The translations under genes and the position numbers were made by a program. 64,000 bases of DNA from Natrialba magadii ATCC 43099. Lineage in GTDB: Archaea > Halobacteriota > Halobacteria > Halobacteriales > Natrialbaceae. The first letter of the stretch is position 1; each line of letters begins with the position of its first letter. Below, piece by piece: positions 39,242 through 45,645 of the stretch. The stretch lies in assembly GCF_000025625.1 (NCBI RefSeq), contig NC_013922.1, positions 1,922,001-1,986,000 of the forward strand, read 5' to 3'. Below the pieces are notes generated by a model. The model was given only the letters and a program-made list of their open reading frames with translations. It was not told the origin of the DNA and searched no databases.

Positions 39242-39270
39242 ACACCCCCACCCCTTCGTTTCAACTGGAG
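39242..39270 (-). promoter_or_regulatory. Origin recognition box, left
   Basis: On the minus strand it reads CTCCAGTTGAAACGAAGGGG followed by TGGGGGTGT: the ORB core TCCAGTTGAAAC and a G-rich string. The first 20 bases and the next five are identical to the right-hand box in inverted orientation. Confidence 0.88.
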
Positions 39271-39369
39271 ACCAGTGATGGAGTGGGGTTGGAGAGCTGG
39301 TGTTGAGCAGCAGTAGCGGGTTCTGTTTCAACTCGAACGGGAGTACAGACGACAACTCGGAAGAAAACG

Positions 39370-39490
39370 AAGGATGCGAGAAGTCTAGTAATAGATCTCC
39401 ATAAGAGGGACAGATCTAGTAGCAACTAGCAATAAAACTAACTTCTCTAGTAAAAACATCAATCTGCTAGTGGTACGGTCCTTATTTCTC
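39370..39490. other. Probable duplex unwinding element
   Basis: The most AT-rich part between the two inverted ORBs, with runs such as AATAAAACTAACTT and TAGTAAAAACATC and five CTAG sites. Orc1 bound at the flanking boxes would be expected to open this stretch. This is inferred from position and composition. Confidence 0.65.
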
Positions 39491-39551
39491 ACCCATCATT
39501 ATAAATCCTCTCGTTCTAGAAGTCACCCTCCCCCACCCCTCTCTCGACTCT

Positions 39552-39589
39552 CTCCAGTTGAAACGAAGGGGTGGGGGGCACCACCCCTT
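39552..39589 (+). promoter_or_regulatory. Origin recognition box, right, with hairpin
   Basis: Plus-strand CTCCAGTTGAAACGAAGGGG followed by TGGGGGG is the mirror copy of the left box. Its G-string also forms a 9-bp inverted repeat with the following CCACCCCTT (39566-39589, 6-base loop). Confidence 0.88.
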
Positions 39590-40268
39590 TCTCACACAAG
39601 TTTCCTGACTCATTGTTGGCAAGACACAATGATGATGATTCACACCCCTTCGTATCATCCCCCACACCACGCTGCATAATCTCTCACCTCACCATCTCCT
39701 CTCACCATCTCCTCTCACCAATCTTCTCTCACCAATCTACTTTCACCAGTCCACCTTCCAACTTTCCCAAAAATTCGAACTTCTGGGATCCGAACCTCCT
39801 TGAATCCGAACCTCCTGGATTGATCGACCCGAGTAGCCCACAGAAATCACCTCCACATCCACAGTCTGAGGCAGGCACGGGTCTAGGATCGGACGGAGCT
39901 GGGACAGGCATGCCCGATTCACAGCGGATCGAATCACGCATAGCTGGTTGCTGCACGAGTTGTAGCTGTCTTCTATTTTCTTCTATACGTGTGCGCGCTA
40001 GACCAACAAGATAGACACAGTGACAAGATAGACACAGTGAATACCAGTCTATCCTTTCACTGTTGGTCCAGTAGTTCAGTGTCGCAGTTGCTCACGGATT
40101 ACTCGGTTCGGTGAACCACTCAACGTCCGTGAAGTGAAGGGAAGAATTTAATATCACCGTCTTCCTCTGTTTCGTTTGCATCAACTGGATCCGGACCGGG
40201 TCGTTAGGACTGTAGACTGGCCCCGCTGGCTCGCCTACACCGCTATATCCTCGCCCTCGGGTTCGGAT

Positions 40269-40290
40269 CTGCAGTCGAAACAAGGGGGTA
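40269..40290 (+). promoter_or_regulatory. ORB-like box before orc1
   Basis: CTGCAGTCGAAACAAGGGGG differs from the main boxes at only a few positions and keeps GAAAC plus the G-string. It ends 12 bp before the orc1 ATG, so Orc1 binding here could repress its own gene. Confidence 0.7.
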
Positions 40291-40302: not shown

Positions 40303-42261
40303 ATGTCAGACGACGAAACGGAACAAACAAATTCGAACACGGGCACAGATACCGATTCACACAGCTCACAGCGGGGCGACCGTGCGAGCAGTGATCGTTC
40401 CTCTCACCAGTCCGACTTATCTTCTGACGCGAACTCGAACTCGAACTCGAACTCAGACTCTACGTCGAACCGACCAGTGAACTCGAGTGCGAATGCGGAC
40501 GGTCCCAGAAACAGTACTAGTACCAGTCCCAGTACCAGTACTAATTCCAATACTGCCGGATCTGACAACACTCACGGTTTCTCGACCGATTTCGGTGACA
40601 CCGACCTTGGTGACGACGGTGAGGACTCAAACCAGGGCCTGTTCGACGACCTCCTGAGTGGCGAACCAATCTTCGAGAACAAGGAGGTCCTTCGGCCATC
40701 GTACACACCCCACGAACTTCCCCACCGAAGCGACCAGATCAACAAGATGGCGACCATCCTGGTCGCCGCGCTTCGCGGCGAAACGCCGTCAAACATCCTC
40801 ATCTACGGGAAGACCGGGACGGGGAAGACCGCGAGCGCGAAGTTCGTCAGCAAAGAACTCGAGAGTACTTCCCAGAAGTACAGCGTCCCGTGTGACGTCG
40901 AGTACATCAACTGCGAGGTAACCGACACGCAGTATCGCGTGCTCGCCCAGCTTGCGAACAAGTTCATCGAGAAGAACAAAGCACGAATCGACGACCAGAT
41001 CGAATCCTTACAGGCGCTCCGTGAGGAGGTTGCGGCGTACGACGAGGCATCAGAACGCCAGGGGAGCACCGACACACCGTCGGCGACCCAGTCCGAATCC
41101 GAACACAACAGCAACATTTCGACTGGAAACGATCCCGATCAGATGGCATCTGAGGAGGGCAACAGTTCACATACTCCAGTGGAAAATGGGGGGTACAGTA
41201 ACAGTAGTGGCGCTTCGGAACGGCGCGAACGCTCGGAGAACGCACAACAATCGCACGGAACGCCACCGCGGCAAACAGCGAATCAGCCACCACACCCACT
41301 CGAGGAGACGGCATTCGAATCGGTCGCTGACATCGACGCGCGGATCGAGTCTCTGCGGGAGGACAAGGACTCGTTCGAAGAGGTGCCGATGACCGGGTGG
41401 CCCACGGATCGCGTCTACAGCGTCTTCTTCGATGCTGTCGACTACGACGAGCGGGTGGTCGTCATTATGCTCGACGAAATCGACAAACTCGTCGAAAAGA
41501 GCGGCGACGACACGCTCTACAATCTTTCGCGAATGAACTCCGAACTCGAGAACTCTCGCGTCTCGATCATCGGCATTTCGAACGACCTCAAGTTCACTGA
41601 CTTTCTCGACCCACGCGTGAAGTCCAGTCTGGGTGAGGAGGAGATCGTTTTCCCACCGTACGACGCCAACCAGCTCCGGGACATTCTCCAGCATCGTTCC
41701 GAAGTCGCGTTCAAAGGGGGCGCGCTGTCTACAGACGTCATCCCGTTGTGTGCGGCCTTCGCTGCACAGGAACACGGGGACGCACGCCGCGCACTCGATC
41801 TCCTTCGGACGGCGGGCGAACTCGCAGAACGTTCGCAAGCCGAAACCATCGTCGAAGAGCACGTCCGCCAGGCACAGGACAAGATCGAACTCGACCGTGT
41901 GGTCGAGGTTGTTCGGACCCTCCCAACCCAGAGCAAACTGGTCCTGTTTGCAATCATCCTCCTCGAGAAGAACGGTGTACACAGCATCAATACGGGCGAG
42001 GTGTTCAATATCTACAAGCGTCTCTGTGAGGAGATCGACGCTGATGTACTCACACAGCGCCGCGTCACGGACCTGATTAGCGAACTCGATATGCTCGGGA
42101 TCGTCAACGCCGTAGTCGTCTCCAAGGGACGGTACGGCCGAACGAAGGAGATCAGCCTCTCGGTGCCGATCGACGAGACGGAGGCCGTACTGCTCTCTGA
42201 CTCTCGGCTTTCGGATATCGACGATATTCAGCCGTTCGTGCAGGCGCGCTTCGAGAACTAA
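40303..42261 (+). CDS. orc1: Origin recognition protein Orc1/Cdc6
   Basis: This AAA+ initiator binds ORBs and loads the MCM helicase. The 652-residue protein has a disordered Ser/Asn/Thr-rich N-terminus (1-110). Walker A (YGKTGTGKTASAKF) is at about 168-181, and Walker B (VVIMLDEIDKL) has its Asp at 391. Sensor motifs include SIIGISNDLKF and DPRVKSS. GDARRALDLLRTAGELA and a C-terminal winged helix follow (SINTGEVFNIYKRL, RRVTDLISELDMLGIV). A low-complexity insert of about 95 residues (about 245-340) splits the AAA+ domain, longer than usual. It is divergent from oapA across the origin and typical of the primary oriC1-linked initiator. Confidence 0.95.
   Translation: MSDDETEQTNSNTGTDTDSHSSQRGDRASSDRSSHQSDLSSDANSNSNSNSDSTSNRPVNSSANADGPRNSTSTSPSTSTNSNTAGSDNTHGFSTDFGDTDLGDDGEDSNQGLFDDLLSGEPIFENKEVLRPSYTPHELPHRSDQINKMATILVAALRGETPSNILIYGKTGTGKTASAKFVSKELESTSQKYSVPCDVEYINCEVTDTQYRVLAQLANKFIEKNKARIDDQIESLQALREEVAAYDEASERQGSTDTPSATQSESEHNSNISTGNDPDQMASEEGNSSHTPVENGGYSNSSGASERRERSENAQQSHGTPPRQTANQPPHPLEETAFESVADIDARIESLREDKDSFEEVPMTGWPTDRVYSVFFDAVDYDERVVVIMLDEIDKLVEKSGDDTLYNLSRMNSELENSRVSIIGISNDLKFTDFLDPRVKSSLGEEEIVFPPYDANQLRDILQHRSEVAFKGGALSTDVIPLCAAFAAQEHGDARRALDLLRTAGELAERSQAETIVEEHVRQAQDKIELDRVVEVVRTLPTQSKLVLFAIILLEKNGVHSINTGEVFNIYKRLCEEIDADVLTQRRVTDLISELDMLGIVNAVVVSKGRYGRTKEISLSVPIDETEAVLLSDSRLSDIDDIQPFVQARFEN
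41174..41196 (+). promoter_or_regulatory. ORB-like sequence inside orc1
   Basis: CTCCAGTGGAAAATGGGGGG followed by TAC lies in the region encoding the low-complexity AAA+ insert. It keeps the CTCCAGT core and a six-base G-string. A weak inverted partner without a C-run lies at about 41114-41130. It could bind Orc1, but coding constraint or chance is also possible. Confidence 0.4.
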
Positions 42262-42909: not shown

Positions 42910-43971
42910 TTACGCCCGGAAGCGGTGTGCTGCAGCCACGACTCCAGCACCCGCGCTAGCACCGACGCCGAGTCCTGCGTTACTCATGAGCTCGAGCATT
43001 TCACCGTCGATCAGTCCCGTCGCACCGGGTGCGATCGGTCCCAGCATGCCGCCGAAGAATTCGTCGAACGCGAGGCGGATGTGGCCGAGCCACGGGATAC
43101 GGAACATCGCCTTGCCGGTCACCCAGTCGGGATGGACAATCGTCGTCGCGGCTCCGCCCTGGTACTGGTCGTAGCCGTTGTTGTTGTCACCCATCGTGAC
43201 GAACCCGTCGTGTGGGGCTGGACAGGTCCGTACCTGGTCGCAGGTTGCGCCGCCGACGATCTCCTCGTCTGCCTTCGTGTCGACCCAGTTTTCGCCCTCG
43301 TCGACCCAGAAGTGTGCCCGGTGTATCACCGGTGTCTGTCCCGGATCGCCATCCGGCATGAAGACGATGACGTCTCCGGGTTCACCGAACTTCTCGTGGT
43401 TGCCGTCCTGGCCGTTCTCGAGTGTTACCACGCCGGTCTCGCCGGCAGGGTCGTCACCGACGAAGCGGTCGTCGTCGACGACGAAGATGAGATCGCCGCG
43501 CTCCATGTTGGGTTCCATGCTGCCGCTCTCGACGGCAACGAGTGGCGGCCAGATCCCGCTGACGGCGAAGAGGAGAAGTCCGATCGCGGCAACGATCGCA
43601 ACGCTGCTTAGAACGTCTCTGACGATGACGACACCCTCGTCGTTCGAGCGCAGAAACCAGCGGATGACACCGTCGTCTTCGATGGTCACGCGGTCGGCGC
43701 GATCGCTGGGGTCGTCGCGTGGGTTCGGTCCGGCTTCCCGTCCCCGTCCCTGTTCGCGTTCGCGTTCGTGTTCCCGTTCCCGTTCGTCGTCACGGTCACG
43801 ATCGGACTCCGTCCCGGTCTCGGACCCGGACTCGTGTTCGTATTCGTGCTCGTGCTCGTGCTCGTGATCGTGATCGTGATCGTGCGCTCGCTCACCGTCG
43901 CTCTCGCGATCACGCTCACGACGCCGATCGCCAACATCGTCGTCAGTCCCACCGGGATCAGGGCCGCTCAT
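42910..43971 (-). CDS. Signal peptidase I (S26B), His-rich N-terminus
   Basis: This membrane protease cleaves Sec signal peptides on the outer face. The core shows the transmembrane anchor (SSVAIVAAIGLLLFAVSGIW), the nucleophile Ser in VESGSMEPNMERGDLIFV, the archaeal catalytic His in TPVIHRAHFWVDEGENWVD, and the Asp in TMGDNNNGYDQY. A disordered N-terminus of about 95 residues is unusual: alternating HDHDHDHEHEHEHE at about 32-45, then Asp/Arg/Glu repeats, from a 6-bp repeat. A C-terminal hydrophobic segment (GLGVGASAGAGVVAAA) adds a second anchor. I used the second Met of MMSGPDP (43971); 43974 is also possible. A paralogue lies at 56625-57491. Confidence 0.88.
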   Translation of the reverse strand: MSGPDPGGTDDDVGDRRRERDRESDGERAHDHDHDHEHEHEHEYEHESGSETGTESDRDRDDEREREHEREREQGRGREAGPNPRDDPSDRADRVTIEDDGVIRWFLRSNDEGVVIVRDVLSSVAIVAAIGLLLFAVSGIWPPLVAVESGSMEPNMERGDLIFVVDDDRFVGDDPAGETGVVTLENGQDGNHEKFGEPGDVIVFMPDGDPGQTPVIHRAHFWVDEGENWVDTKADEEIVGGATCDQVRTCPAPHDGFVTMGDNNNGYDQYQGGAATTIVHPDWVTGKAMFRIPWLGHIRLAFDEFFGGMLGPIAPGATGLIDGEMLELMSNAGLGVGASAGAGVVAAAHRFRA

Positions 43972-44100
43972 CATCCCGCTTTTTGCTGGGGGCTACAATC
44001 AACCTTCTGCTCAGTCGAACCACGTGAAGCAGTCCAGATCTGTCCCCGCGTTCGTTCTGGATTCGCTATCCTTTTGCCCCAGGTCACGAATACGATTCGT

Positions 44101-45645
44101 GTGCCACTCGAGGGGCCGGCCCGAATCGTCAGCGAACTTACGAGCCGCGGCTACAACGCTGAGCGCGAGGCAGTGACCCACATCGCTTCGGCGGACCATC
44201 CCGCGGCCGTTCTCGAGCAAGTTGTCGAGGAGATGCCTGACGACGCGCTGGTCGTTCGAACGGATCACGTCGAAGCGGTGCTAGCGGCTGACGAAGACCC
44301 CTCCGTTTCAACTGGAACTCGTCCCGCAGATCAGCACGACTCGGTGGAGCAAGTTCCAGCTGAAACAGGGGGGTCTGGACCGACCGCAGTCGCCGAGTCG
44401 GAGGCAAACGAGCGAATCGAGCGCAACAACGATCCCTCGCTTCGCTCACTCGAGATCGACGGCGACATGACCGGCAACAGTACGGGAACCGGCGAGTACG
44501 AGGACTTTGTCGCCGTCTTCCGGGACCGACTCGAGCGCCTCGGCGGAAAGCTCCGCGGGCGAGTCAATCACCGACCTGCAACGGCCATCCAGTCGATGCC
44601 GGGCGGTAGCGAGGCAGGAATGGTCGGGCTGGTCAACGACATTCGATCGACGGCGAGCGGCCACTGGCTGATCGAACTCGAGGACGCCACGGGTACGTTC
44701 CCGTGGCTGGTGATGAAAGATCGCGAGTTCGCCGATATGGTTGACCAACTGCTCTGTGATGAGGTGCTGGCGATGGAGGGGACCCTCTCGGACGATGCGG
44801 GAATCGCCTTCGTCGACTCGATGTACTTCCCGGACGTGCCGCGTACGCACGAGCCATCGACGGCAGACCGCCACGTGCAGGCAGCGCTGATCAGCGACGT
44901 CCACGTCGGCAGCCAGGAGTTCATGGCCGACGCCTGGGACGCCTTCGCGGACTGGCTGTACACGGAGCAGGCCCAGCACGTCGAGTACCTGCTAATCGCC
45001 GGCGACATGGTCGAGGGCGTGGGCATCTATCCGAACCAGGACGAGGAGCTCGACGTAGTCGACATCTACGAGCAGTACGAGGCCTTCAACGAGCGCCTCA
45101 AGCAAGTTCCCGGTGATATAGACATCGTCATGATTCCGGGCAACCACGACGCGGTTCGGCTCGCAGAGCCCCAGCCCGGCTTCGACGACCGGCTTCGCGA
45201 TATCATGTCCGCCCACGATCCACAGATCGTGAGCAACCCTTCTACCGTTACCGTCGAGGGCGTCTCTATTCTGATGTACCACGGTGTCTCGCTGGACGAG
45301 GTCATCGCCGAACTCCCCGAGGAAAAGGCGAGCTACGACGAGCCACACAAGGCGATGTACCAGCTCCTGAAAAAGCGCCACGTCGCACCGCAGTTCGGGG
45401 GCCACACTCGCCTTGCACCCGAAGAGGAGGACTTCCTCGTGATGGACGAGGTGCCGGACATCTTCCACACCGGCCACGTCCACAAACTCGGCTTCGGGAA
45501 GTACCACAATGTGCTCGCGATCAATTCTGGCTGCTGGCAGGCCCAGACGGACTTTCAGAAGAGCGTCAACATCAACCCCGATTCGGGTTACGCGCCGATT
45601 GTCGACCTCGACACGCTGGACGTAACGGTACAGAAATTCAGCTGA
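44101..45645 (+). CDS. polD1: DNA polymerase D small subunit (DP1)
   Basis: This is the 3'-5' exonuclease subunit of the euryarchaeal replicative polymerase PolD. The N-terminal region (about 1-130) is followed by an OB-like domain (EYEDFVAVFRDRLERLGGKL, GHWLIELEDATGTFPWLV). The calcineurin-like phosphoesterase domain has all metal sites: ISDVHVGSQEF, IAGDMVEGVGI, IPGNHDAVR, YHGVSLDE and HTGHVHKLG. GTG 44101 was chosen; the open frame continues upstream but overlaps the signal peptidase gene, and the conserved N-terminus (PLEGPARIVSELTSRGYNAE) begins here. An ORB-like inverted pair lies within codons 66-92. Confidence 0.93.
   Translation: MPLEGPARIVSELTSRGYNAEREAVTHIASADHPAAVLEQVVEEMPDDALVVRTDHVEAVLAADEDPSVSTGTRPADQHDSVEQVPAETGGSGPTAVAESEANERIERNNDPSLRSLEIDGDMTGNSTGTGEYEDFVAVFRDRLERLGGKLRGRVNHRPATAIQSMPGGSEAGMVGLVNDIRSTASGHWLIELEDATGTFPWLVMKDREFADMVDQLLCDEVLAMEGTLSDDAGIAFVDSMYFPDVPRTHEPSTADRHVQAALISDVHVGSQEFMADAWDAFADWLYTEQAQHVEYLLIAGDMVEGVGIYPNQDEELDVVDIYEQYEAFNERLKQVPGDIDIVMIPGNHDAVRLAEPQPGFDDRLRDIMSAHDPQIVSNPSTVTVEGVSILMYHGVSLDEVIAELPEEKASYDEPHKAMYQLLKKRHVAPQFGGHTRLAPEEEDFLVMDEVPDIFHTGHVHKLGFGKYHNVLAINSGCWQAQTDFQKSVNINPDSGYAPIVDLDTLDVTVQKFS
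44297..44374. promoter_or_regulatory. Inverted ORB-like pair inside the DP1 gene
   Basis: The left arm (44297-44318) reads on the minus strand GTTCCAGTTGAAACGGAGGG plus GT. The right arm (44353-44374) reads GTTCCAGCTGAAACAGGGGG plus GT. The arms match at 19 of 22 positions, are inverted with G-strings pointing outward, and are 34 bp apart. This is the geometry of the main origin pair on a smaller scale. The encoded stretch is a variable linker of DP1, so coding need does not explain it. Confidence 0.65.

Follow-up and report, generated by a model that had tools for sequence, protein, structure and literature searches.

Why does the gene encoding DP1, the DNA polymerase D small subunit, carry, inside its coding sequence, two inverted copies of the ORB found at the replication origin oriC1? 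Such a pair lies in a 64,000-nucleotide stretch of the Natrialba magadii ATCC 43099 genome (the window), in which oriC1 adjoins orc1 and OapABC. The initial annotation of this DNA described two ORB-like 22-mers, identical at 19 of 22 positions, with a 34-bp inner gap and G-strings facing outward, within DP1 codons 66–92. Here we ask whether the pair is real, what kind of constraint maintains it, whether it belongs to the origin or to DP1, and what it may do there.

An inverted ORB pair within the DP1 gene

All of the measurements made in the initial annotation hold (Table 1). The DP1 start codon, inferred from relatives, is the GTG at 44101, and the pair falls in the linker that joins the N-terminal domain of the protein to its phosphoesterase-like domain. 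Haloarchaeal ORBs of the oriC1 type are recognized by a TTCCAGNNGAAAC core followed by a G-string, and both DP1 arms carry these with zero mismatches. By pattern and by matrix the arms also match the ORBs of oriC1 in the same genome, although the DP1 arms end in GGGGTCT and the oriC1 ORBs in GGGGTGG. The annotation further held that the DP1 pair copies the pair at oriC1. That is accurate for orientation (the two pairs are 4.7 kb apart) but not for spacing, which is a fixed 57 bp at DP1 and about 300 bp, and variable, at oriC1.

Table 1. Features of the window discussed in the text, in window coordinates; bit scores are from a matrix built on relatives' oriC1 ORBs
Feature	Coordinates	Strand	Remarks
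oriC1 left ORB	39250..39271	-	TCTCCAGTTGAAACGAAGGGGT
AT-rich stretch between oriC1 ORBs, candidate unwinding element	39410..39469		68% AT in 60 bp
oriC1 right ORB	39551..39572	+	Sequence identical to left ORB, TCTCCAGTTGAAACGAAGGGGT; 301 bp start to start
Single ORB just upstream of orc1	40268..40289	+	Motif start conserved ~33 bp before the start codon
orc1/cdc6 of oriC1 (652 aa)	40303..42261	+	Pfam Cdc6 winged-helix (Cdc6_C) and AAA+ domains
ORB-like site inside orc1	41173..41194	+	Within a variable insertion; 2 mismatches in this genome, many relatives with a full ORB
sec11, signal-peptidase-like gene	42910..43974	-	Divergent from DP1; weak Pfam Peptidase_S26
DP1, DNA polymerase D small subunit	44101..45645	+	Pfam DNA_pol_E_B and Metallophos; alignment of relatives
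DP1 pair, left ORB arm	44297..44318	-	GTTCCAGTTGAAACGGAGGGGT read on - strand; G-string outward; 26.8 bits
DP1 pair, spacer between arms	44319..44352		34 bp, 38% AT; conserved in length but not in sequence or peptide
DP1 pair, right ORB arm	44353..44374	+	GTTCCAGCTGAAACAGGGGGGT; G-string outward; 17.7 bits

Background frequency of the pair

The background in the N. magadii genome was estimated from a pattern search of all 4.44 Mb together with 400-kb control samples. Five sites in the genome match the ORB pattern exactly: two make up the oriC1 pair, two the DP1 pair, and the fifth stands alone 31 kb beyond oriC1. With a scoring matrix trained solely on the oriC1 ORBs of relatives (maximum 42.6 bits), no site of at least 8 bits was found in 400 kb of control DNA. 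We also searched 125 genomes of the family with a strict pattern for tight inverted pairs (53–79 bp start to start). The pattern matched in 67 of them, at one place each except in G107, where there were two, DP1 being on two contigs. When coordinates were compared with those of a DP1 search, these places proved to be at DP1 in all 67 genomes, and the reversed control of the same pattern gave zero matches in the 125. In 64 long loci from relatives the best inverted pair within the 600 bp before the DP1 C-domain scored 28–34 of 34, a range somewhat inflated by picking the best-scoring pair in each linker; the guards against this are the independent family-wide pattern search and the control windows, among which one of 1,088 reached 28.

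A genome scan for equally good inverted pairs had been set beforehand as a refuting test, and it returned no comparable tight pair outside DP1. The pattern scan of the genome, the family-wide pattern, the matrix scores and the control windows all reject a chance match.

Conservation of sequence and geometry across haloarchaea

Alignment of DP1 genes from close relatives, another check proposed at the outset, found the pair there and found the DNA itself, and not merely the protein, to be conserved. The comparison was made over 80 named haloarchaeal DP1 loci, 79 with a readable linker, from Natrialba, Natrinema, Haloterrigena, Natronococcus, Halobellus, Halogeometricum, Haladaptatus, Haloarcula, Halobaculum and other genera. 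An ORB pair is present in 77 of the 79 readable loci, and in 69 the arms are exactly 57 bp apart, start to start; distances of 54, 69 and 72 bp also occur. The distance from the pair to the C-domain varies from 205 to 418 bp, that from the DP1 start to the pair varies widely too (197–371 bp among the values listed), and neither the sequence nor the peptide of the spacer is conserved across loci. The DP1 pair is a rigid cassette inside a linker of otherwise changing length.

The other families of the order that were sampled differ in its fate: some retain the pair, some have it eroded with the 57-bp spacing unchanged, some have a single arm, and some have lost it. Six genomes of one genus, g33 (loci L128, L129, L131, L133, L134 and L135), keep the right arm alone as a perfect match, the left arm being gone, and the pair is lost in L139, L142 and L143. 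Since several clades are without one or both arms, the function of the pair is not indispensable in the class. No such pair was found in 12 DP1 loci from outside the haloarchaea, genomes whose ORBs may differ.

Codon usage in the arms separates selection on DNA from selection on protein. DP1 has a GC3 of 0.87, and the arms nonetheless hold rare codons that are fixed for their amino acids: GTT (55/55), ACT (73/73), GGA (73/73), CCA (71/72) and GAA (77/77) over all loci. Sampling a single locus from each genus or clade (36 loci), which lowers phylogenetic dependence without removing it, left the picture unchanged, with GTT at 27/27, ACT at 33/33, GGA at 34/34, CCA at 31/32 and GAA at 36/36. Against backgrounds of 0.03–0.26 (one locus per genus) the binomial p values run from 1e-21 to 1e-51. 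Rare codons fixed against so high a GC3 indicate that it is the DNA, not the peptide, that is selected. If the arms formed an RNA stem, those from the same species should match more closely than those taken from different species. Of 19 positions, 15.71 match within species and 15.57 when arms are shuffled between species (p=0.09), so the arms do not covary in the manner of a stem. They are constrained as ORBs.

The pair stays with DP1, not with oriC1 or orc1

DP1 lies ~3.5–6.5 kb from oriC1 in most genomes, and oriC1, orc1, sec11 and DP1 are usually neighbours. Rearranged genomes part them. The distance from orc1 to DP1 is 193 kb in G117, 42 kb in G111, 33 kb in G046, 30 kb in G102 and G105, and ~20 kb in G112 and G114, and the DP1 pair is intact in every one of these genomes. 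In genus g24 the oriC1-type ORB pair (313–317 bp spacing) is itself remote from DP1, by 1.54 Mb in G117 and by 170–190 kb in G111, G112 and G114. Neither OapA/B nor orc1 was found within 100 kb of the G117 pair, so that ORB sequence and spacing are all that name it as oriC1. sec11, by comparison, still adjoins DP1 in the rearranged genomes, the two genes being neighbours in every case examined. Because the pair is kept with DP1 even where orc1 or the oriC1-type pair is distant, the element belongs to DP1 (with the divergent sec11) and not to the origin. The DP1 pair is INDEPENDENCE from oriC1, being tied to the position of neither oriC1 nor orc1. In most of the g24 genomes (G110, G111, G112, G113, G114 and G117) orc1, DP1 and the oriC1-type pair are all apart from one another, which makes this genus a natural test bed for origin-initiator linkage.

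Other ORBs near oriC1 and in orc1

Across loci L044-L123, L195, L197, L198 and L200 a single ORB also stands just upstream of orc1, at 33 bp in almost all Natrialbaceae and at 24–39 bp in most others, and it persists at about −33 where orc1 is far from an oriC1-type pair. This ORB is a likely candidate for an Orc1 autoregulatory site. As 72% of Haloferax transcripts are leaderless (PMC4983044), an ORB at about −33 of orc1 would cover the core promoter. Within Natrialbaceae orc1 genes, a variable insertion between the AAA+ motifs carries one ORB in most loci, nearly always on the strand of the gene, and orc1 loci without the insertion are without an internal ORB.

ORB-like sites in the N. magadii genome are concentrated near oriC1: of 17 with at most 3 mismatches, 14 lie within ~200 kb (C1:1.79-2.07 Mb), and 12 sites of at least 8 bits lie within about 200 kb of oriC1 against none in the 400-kb control. 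Among the sites outside the window is a single ORB at C1:1992768 (window coordinate 70768), ~31 kb beyond oriC1, whose 21-bp core is identical to that of the oriC1 ORBs and which is present in a sister species too (G005:C60:299100). Another ORB-like site, at C1:2013894, falls in a gene for a Hef-like helicase/nuclease, within its linker.

A proposed role in the control of DP1 by Orc1

We propose that the DP1 pair is a putative non-origin double site for Orc1 whose most likely role is the control of DP1 expression, a reading that we give an even chance of being correct. Two molecules of Orc1, the oriC1 initiator, would bind the inverted sites cooperatively in a 57-bp register, 200–370 bp into the gene, and the bound pair would act as a roadblock that hinders or gates DP1 transcription. 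Polymerase D synthesis would thereby track free or ATP-bound Orc1. Joined to autoregulation through the ORB ~33 bp upstream of orc1, the gating of DP1 would amount to an Orc1 feedback circuit comprising orc1 and DP1. Three steps of this scheme we infer: that Orc1 binds the pair, that it does so cooperatively, and that binding acts on DP1 transcription.

A coupling of Orc1 level to PolD expression was among the roles floated in the initial annotation. We favour it as a likely role because the element stays in DP1 over large evolutionary distances even when oriC1-type pairs or orc1 are far away, and because a fixed ORB also precedes the start of orc1 itself. Genetic data from Haloarcula hispanica are of interest here. 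Its oriC1 initiator gene, cdc6A, is extremely hard to delete though oriC1 is dispensable, from which the authors infer that Cdc6A is vital for something other than initiation at oriC1, suggesting a part in transcriptional regulation (PMC3936714). In Sulfolobus, Orc1-2 is a transcription regulator (PMC9738581). Several observations weigh against the gating of DP1. The site is intragenic rather than at a promoter, which is unusual for an archaeal regulator; the pair is evidently dispensable in some lineages, since six genomes of g33 keep one arm and in others it is degenerate or absent; and sec11, the constant neighbour of DP1, could be the target instead.

More broadly, and with somewhat less than even confidence, we suggest that haloarchaeal Orc1 may be a replication-feedback regulator, using the ORB at about −33 to repress its own gene and the double site in DP1 to gate the polymerase, in a circuit that would predate the main haloarchaeal families. 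Such a circuit could account for the vital role away from oriC1 that the genetics indicates for Cdc6A.

Alternative explanations

Titration is the main rival to DP1 control. The pair would then be a datA-like sink, binding Orc1 without acting on DP1, lowering free initiator once the region has been replicated and so limiting the firing of oriC1. The ORB-rich oriC2D does titrate Cdc6E in H. hispanica (PMC3936714), the DP1 pair usually replicates soon after oriC1 (~4–6 kb away), and good ORB-like sites do cluster within ~200 kb of oriC1. However, oriC2D has 11 sites and DP1 two, which is not the dense cluster of initiator sites expected of a titration site; exact spacing and a location in coding sequence are not required of a sink; and the pair is kept 1.5 Mb from an oriC1-type pair, where nearness gives no early duplication. 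Orc1 titration, also suggested in the initial annotation, we think unlikely, two sites being few.

We consider it improbable that the pair is a dormant or secondary origin, or a precise MCM-loading site at which two facing Orc1 molecules a fixed distance apart load helicases. Inverted ORBs are a mark of archaeal origins, the outward G-strings are arranged as at oriC1, and the fixed 57-bp geometry would suit the assembly of a defined complex. However, AT content is 38% between the arms and 48% in the best 60 bp nearby, compared with 53% and a peak of 68% at oriC1, and no AT-rich unwinding element was found between the arms or in their vicinity. Archaeal origins also lie directly beside orc1/cdc6, whereas the pair is kept with orc1 20–193 kb away. 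GC skew around DP1 and around the oriC1-type pair, in G117 and in the N. magadii genome, gave no usable signal. In H. hispanica the marker-frequency peak is abolished once oriC1 alone is deleted, with no new origin taking over, and a double deletion of oriC1 and oriC2 cannot be made (PMC3936714). The DP1 pair is present in Haloarcula and relatives of it (L112, L115, L121 and L123; the DP1 of H. hispanica itself is not among the loci read), yet the oriC1 deletion leaves no residual origin. The lack of an unwinding element and the outcome in the H. hispanica deletion strain together disfavour the secondary-origin role first entertained for this DNA.

That the DP1 pair forms part of an extended oriC1 complex, with Orc1 there contacting Orc1 at oriC1 by handcuffing or looping, is very unlikely: it would fit the ~3.5–6.5 kb between oriC1 and DP1 in most genomes, but the pair is unchanged where the oriC1-type pair is 170 kb-1.5 Mb away or orc1 20–193 kb away. 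The chances are slimmer again that a protein other than Orc1 binds the pair. The GGGGTCT ends of the arms and a spacing rule unlike that of oriC1 would suit another binder, against which the core is identical to that of the oriC1 ORBs, which are Orc1/Cdc6 sites, and in haloarchaea a pairing of ORBs with their own Cdc6 has been reported (PMC3528665). Finally, a constraint on the peptide (PSVSTG...PVETGGS) or on an mRNA hairpin, with the ORB match incidental, is scarcely tenable and already contradicted, for although frame and peptides are common to nearly all loci and inverted arms could pair in RNA, the conserved stretch has no free synonymous variation, compensatory changes between the arms are absent, and the arms vary independently within ORB degeneracy.

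Significance and comparison with known systems

Published surveys of haloarchaeal ORBs took the intergenic regions flanking orc/cdc6 genes (PMC3528665, PMC4595724) and would therefore miss a site inside DP1; in the literature searched, we found no description of ORBs in DP1/PolD or in coding regions. The letter-by-letter retention of the pair in much of the class suggests that the start of replication and the making of the polymerase are linked by a form of control not described before. The pair supplies an exact, mutable sequence with which to ask why oriC1 is dispensable where its initiator is nearly indispensable, and it bears on how archaea match initiation to polymerase supply. The site can be destroyed with the DP1 protein unchanged, so that the test would be a clean one.

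Of the known systems, haloarchaeal oriC1, associated with orc1/cdc6A, shares with the DP1 pair its ORB core, G-string and inverted outward arrangement. At oriC1, however, the spacing is variable at about 200–340 bp, whereas the DP1 arms are fixed at 57 bp, are without an AT-rich element, lie within a gene and are not tied to orc1. The Cdc6E-titrating ORB cluster oriC2D of H. hispanica and the bacterial datA/DnaA-box sinks are, like the DP1 pair, initiator sites outside the origin proper. In contrast to oriC2D, with 11 sites in 722 bp, the DP1 pair has two sites, is intragenic and exactly spaced, recurs in many genera and relates to the initiator of oriC1, not that of oriC2. DnaA as a transcription regulator, with DnaA boxes in the dnaA promoter, offers a likeness in having initiator sites near its own gene and at a replication gene; the DP1 site differs in belonging to the archaeal Orc1/ORB system and in being intragenic, and its regulation is proposed from sequence. 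The damage-response regulator Orc1-2 of Sulfolobus is likewise a protein of the Orc1/Cdc6 family that acts on transcription, but it is a non-initiator paralogue with its own regulon, whereas the site in DP1 is that of the oriC1 initiator. Beside these systems the DP1 pair appears to be a non-origin initiator site that is unusual in being intragenic, fixed in its spacing and conserved in many genera.
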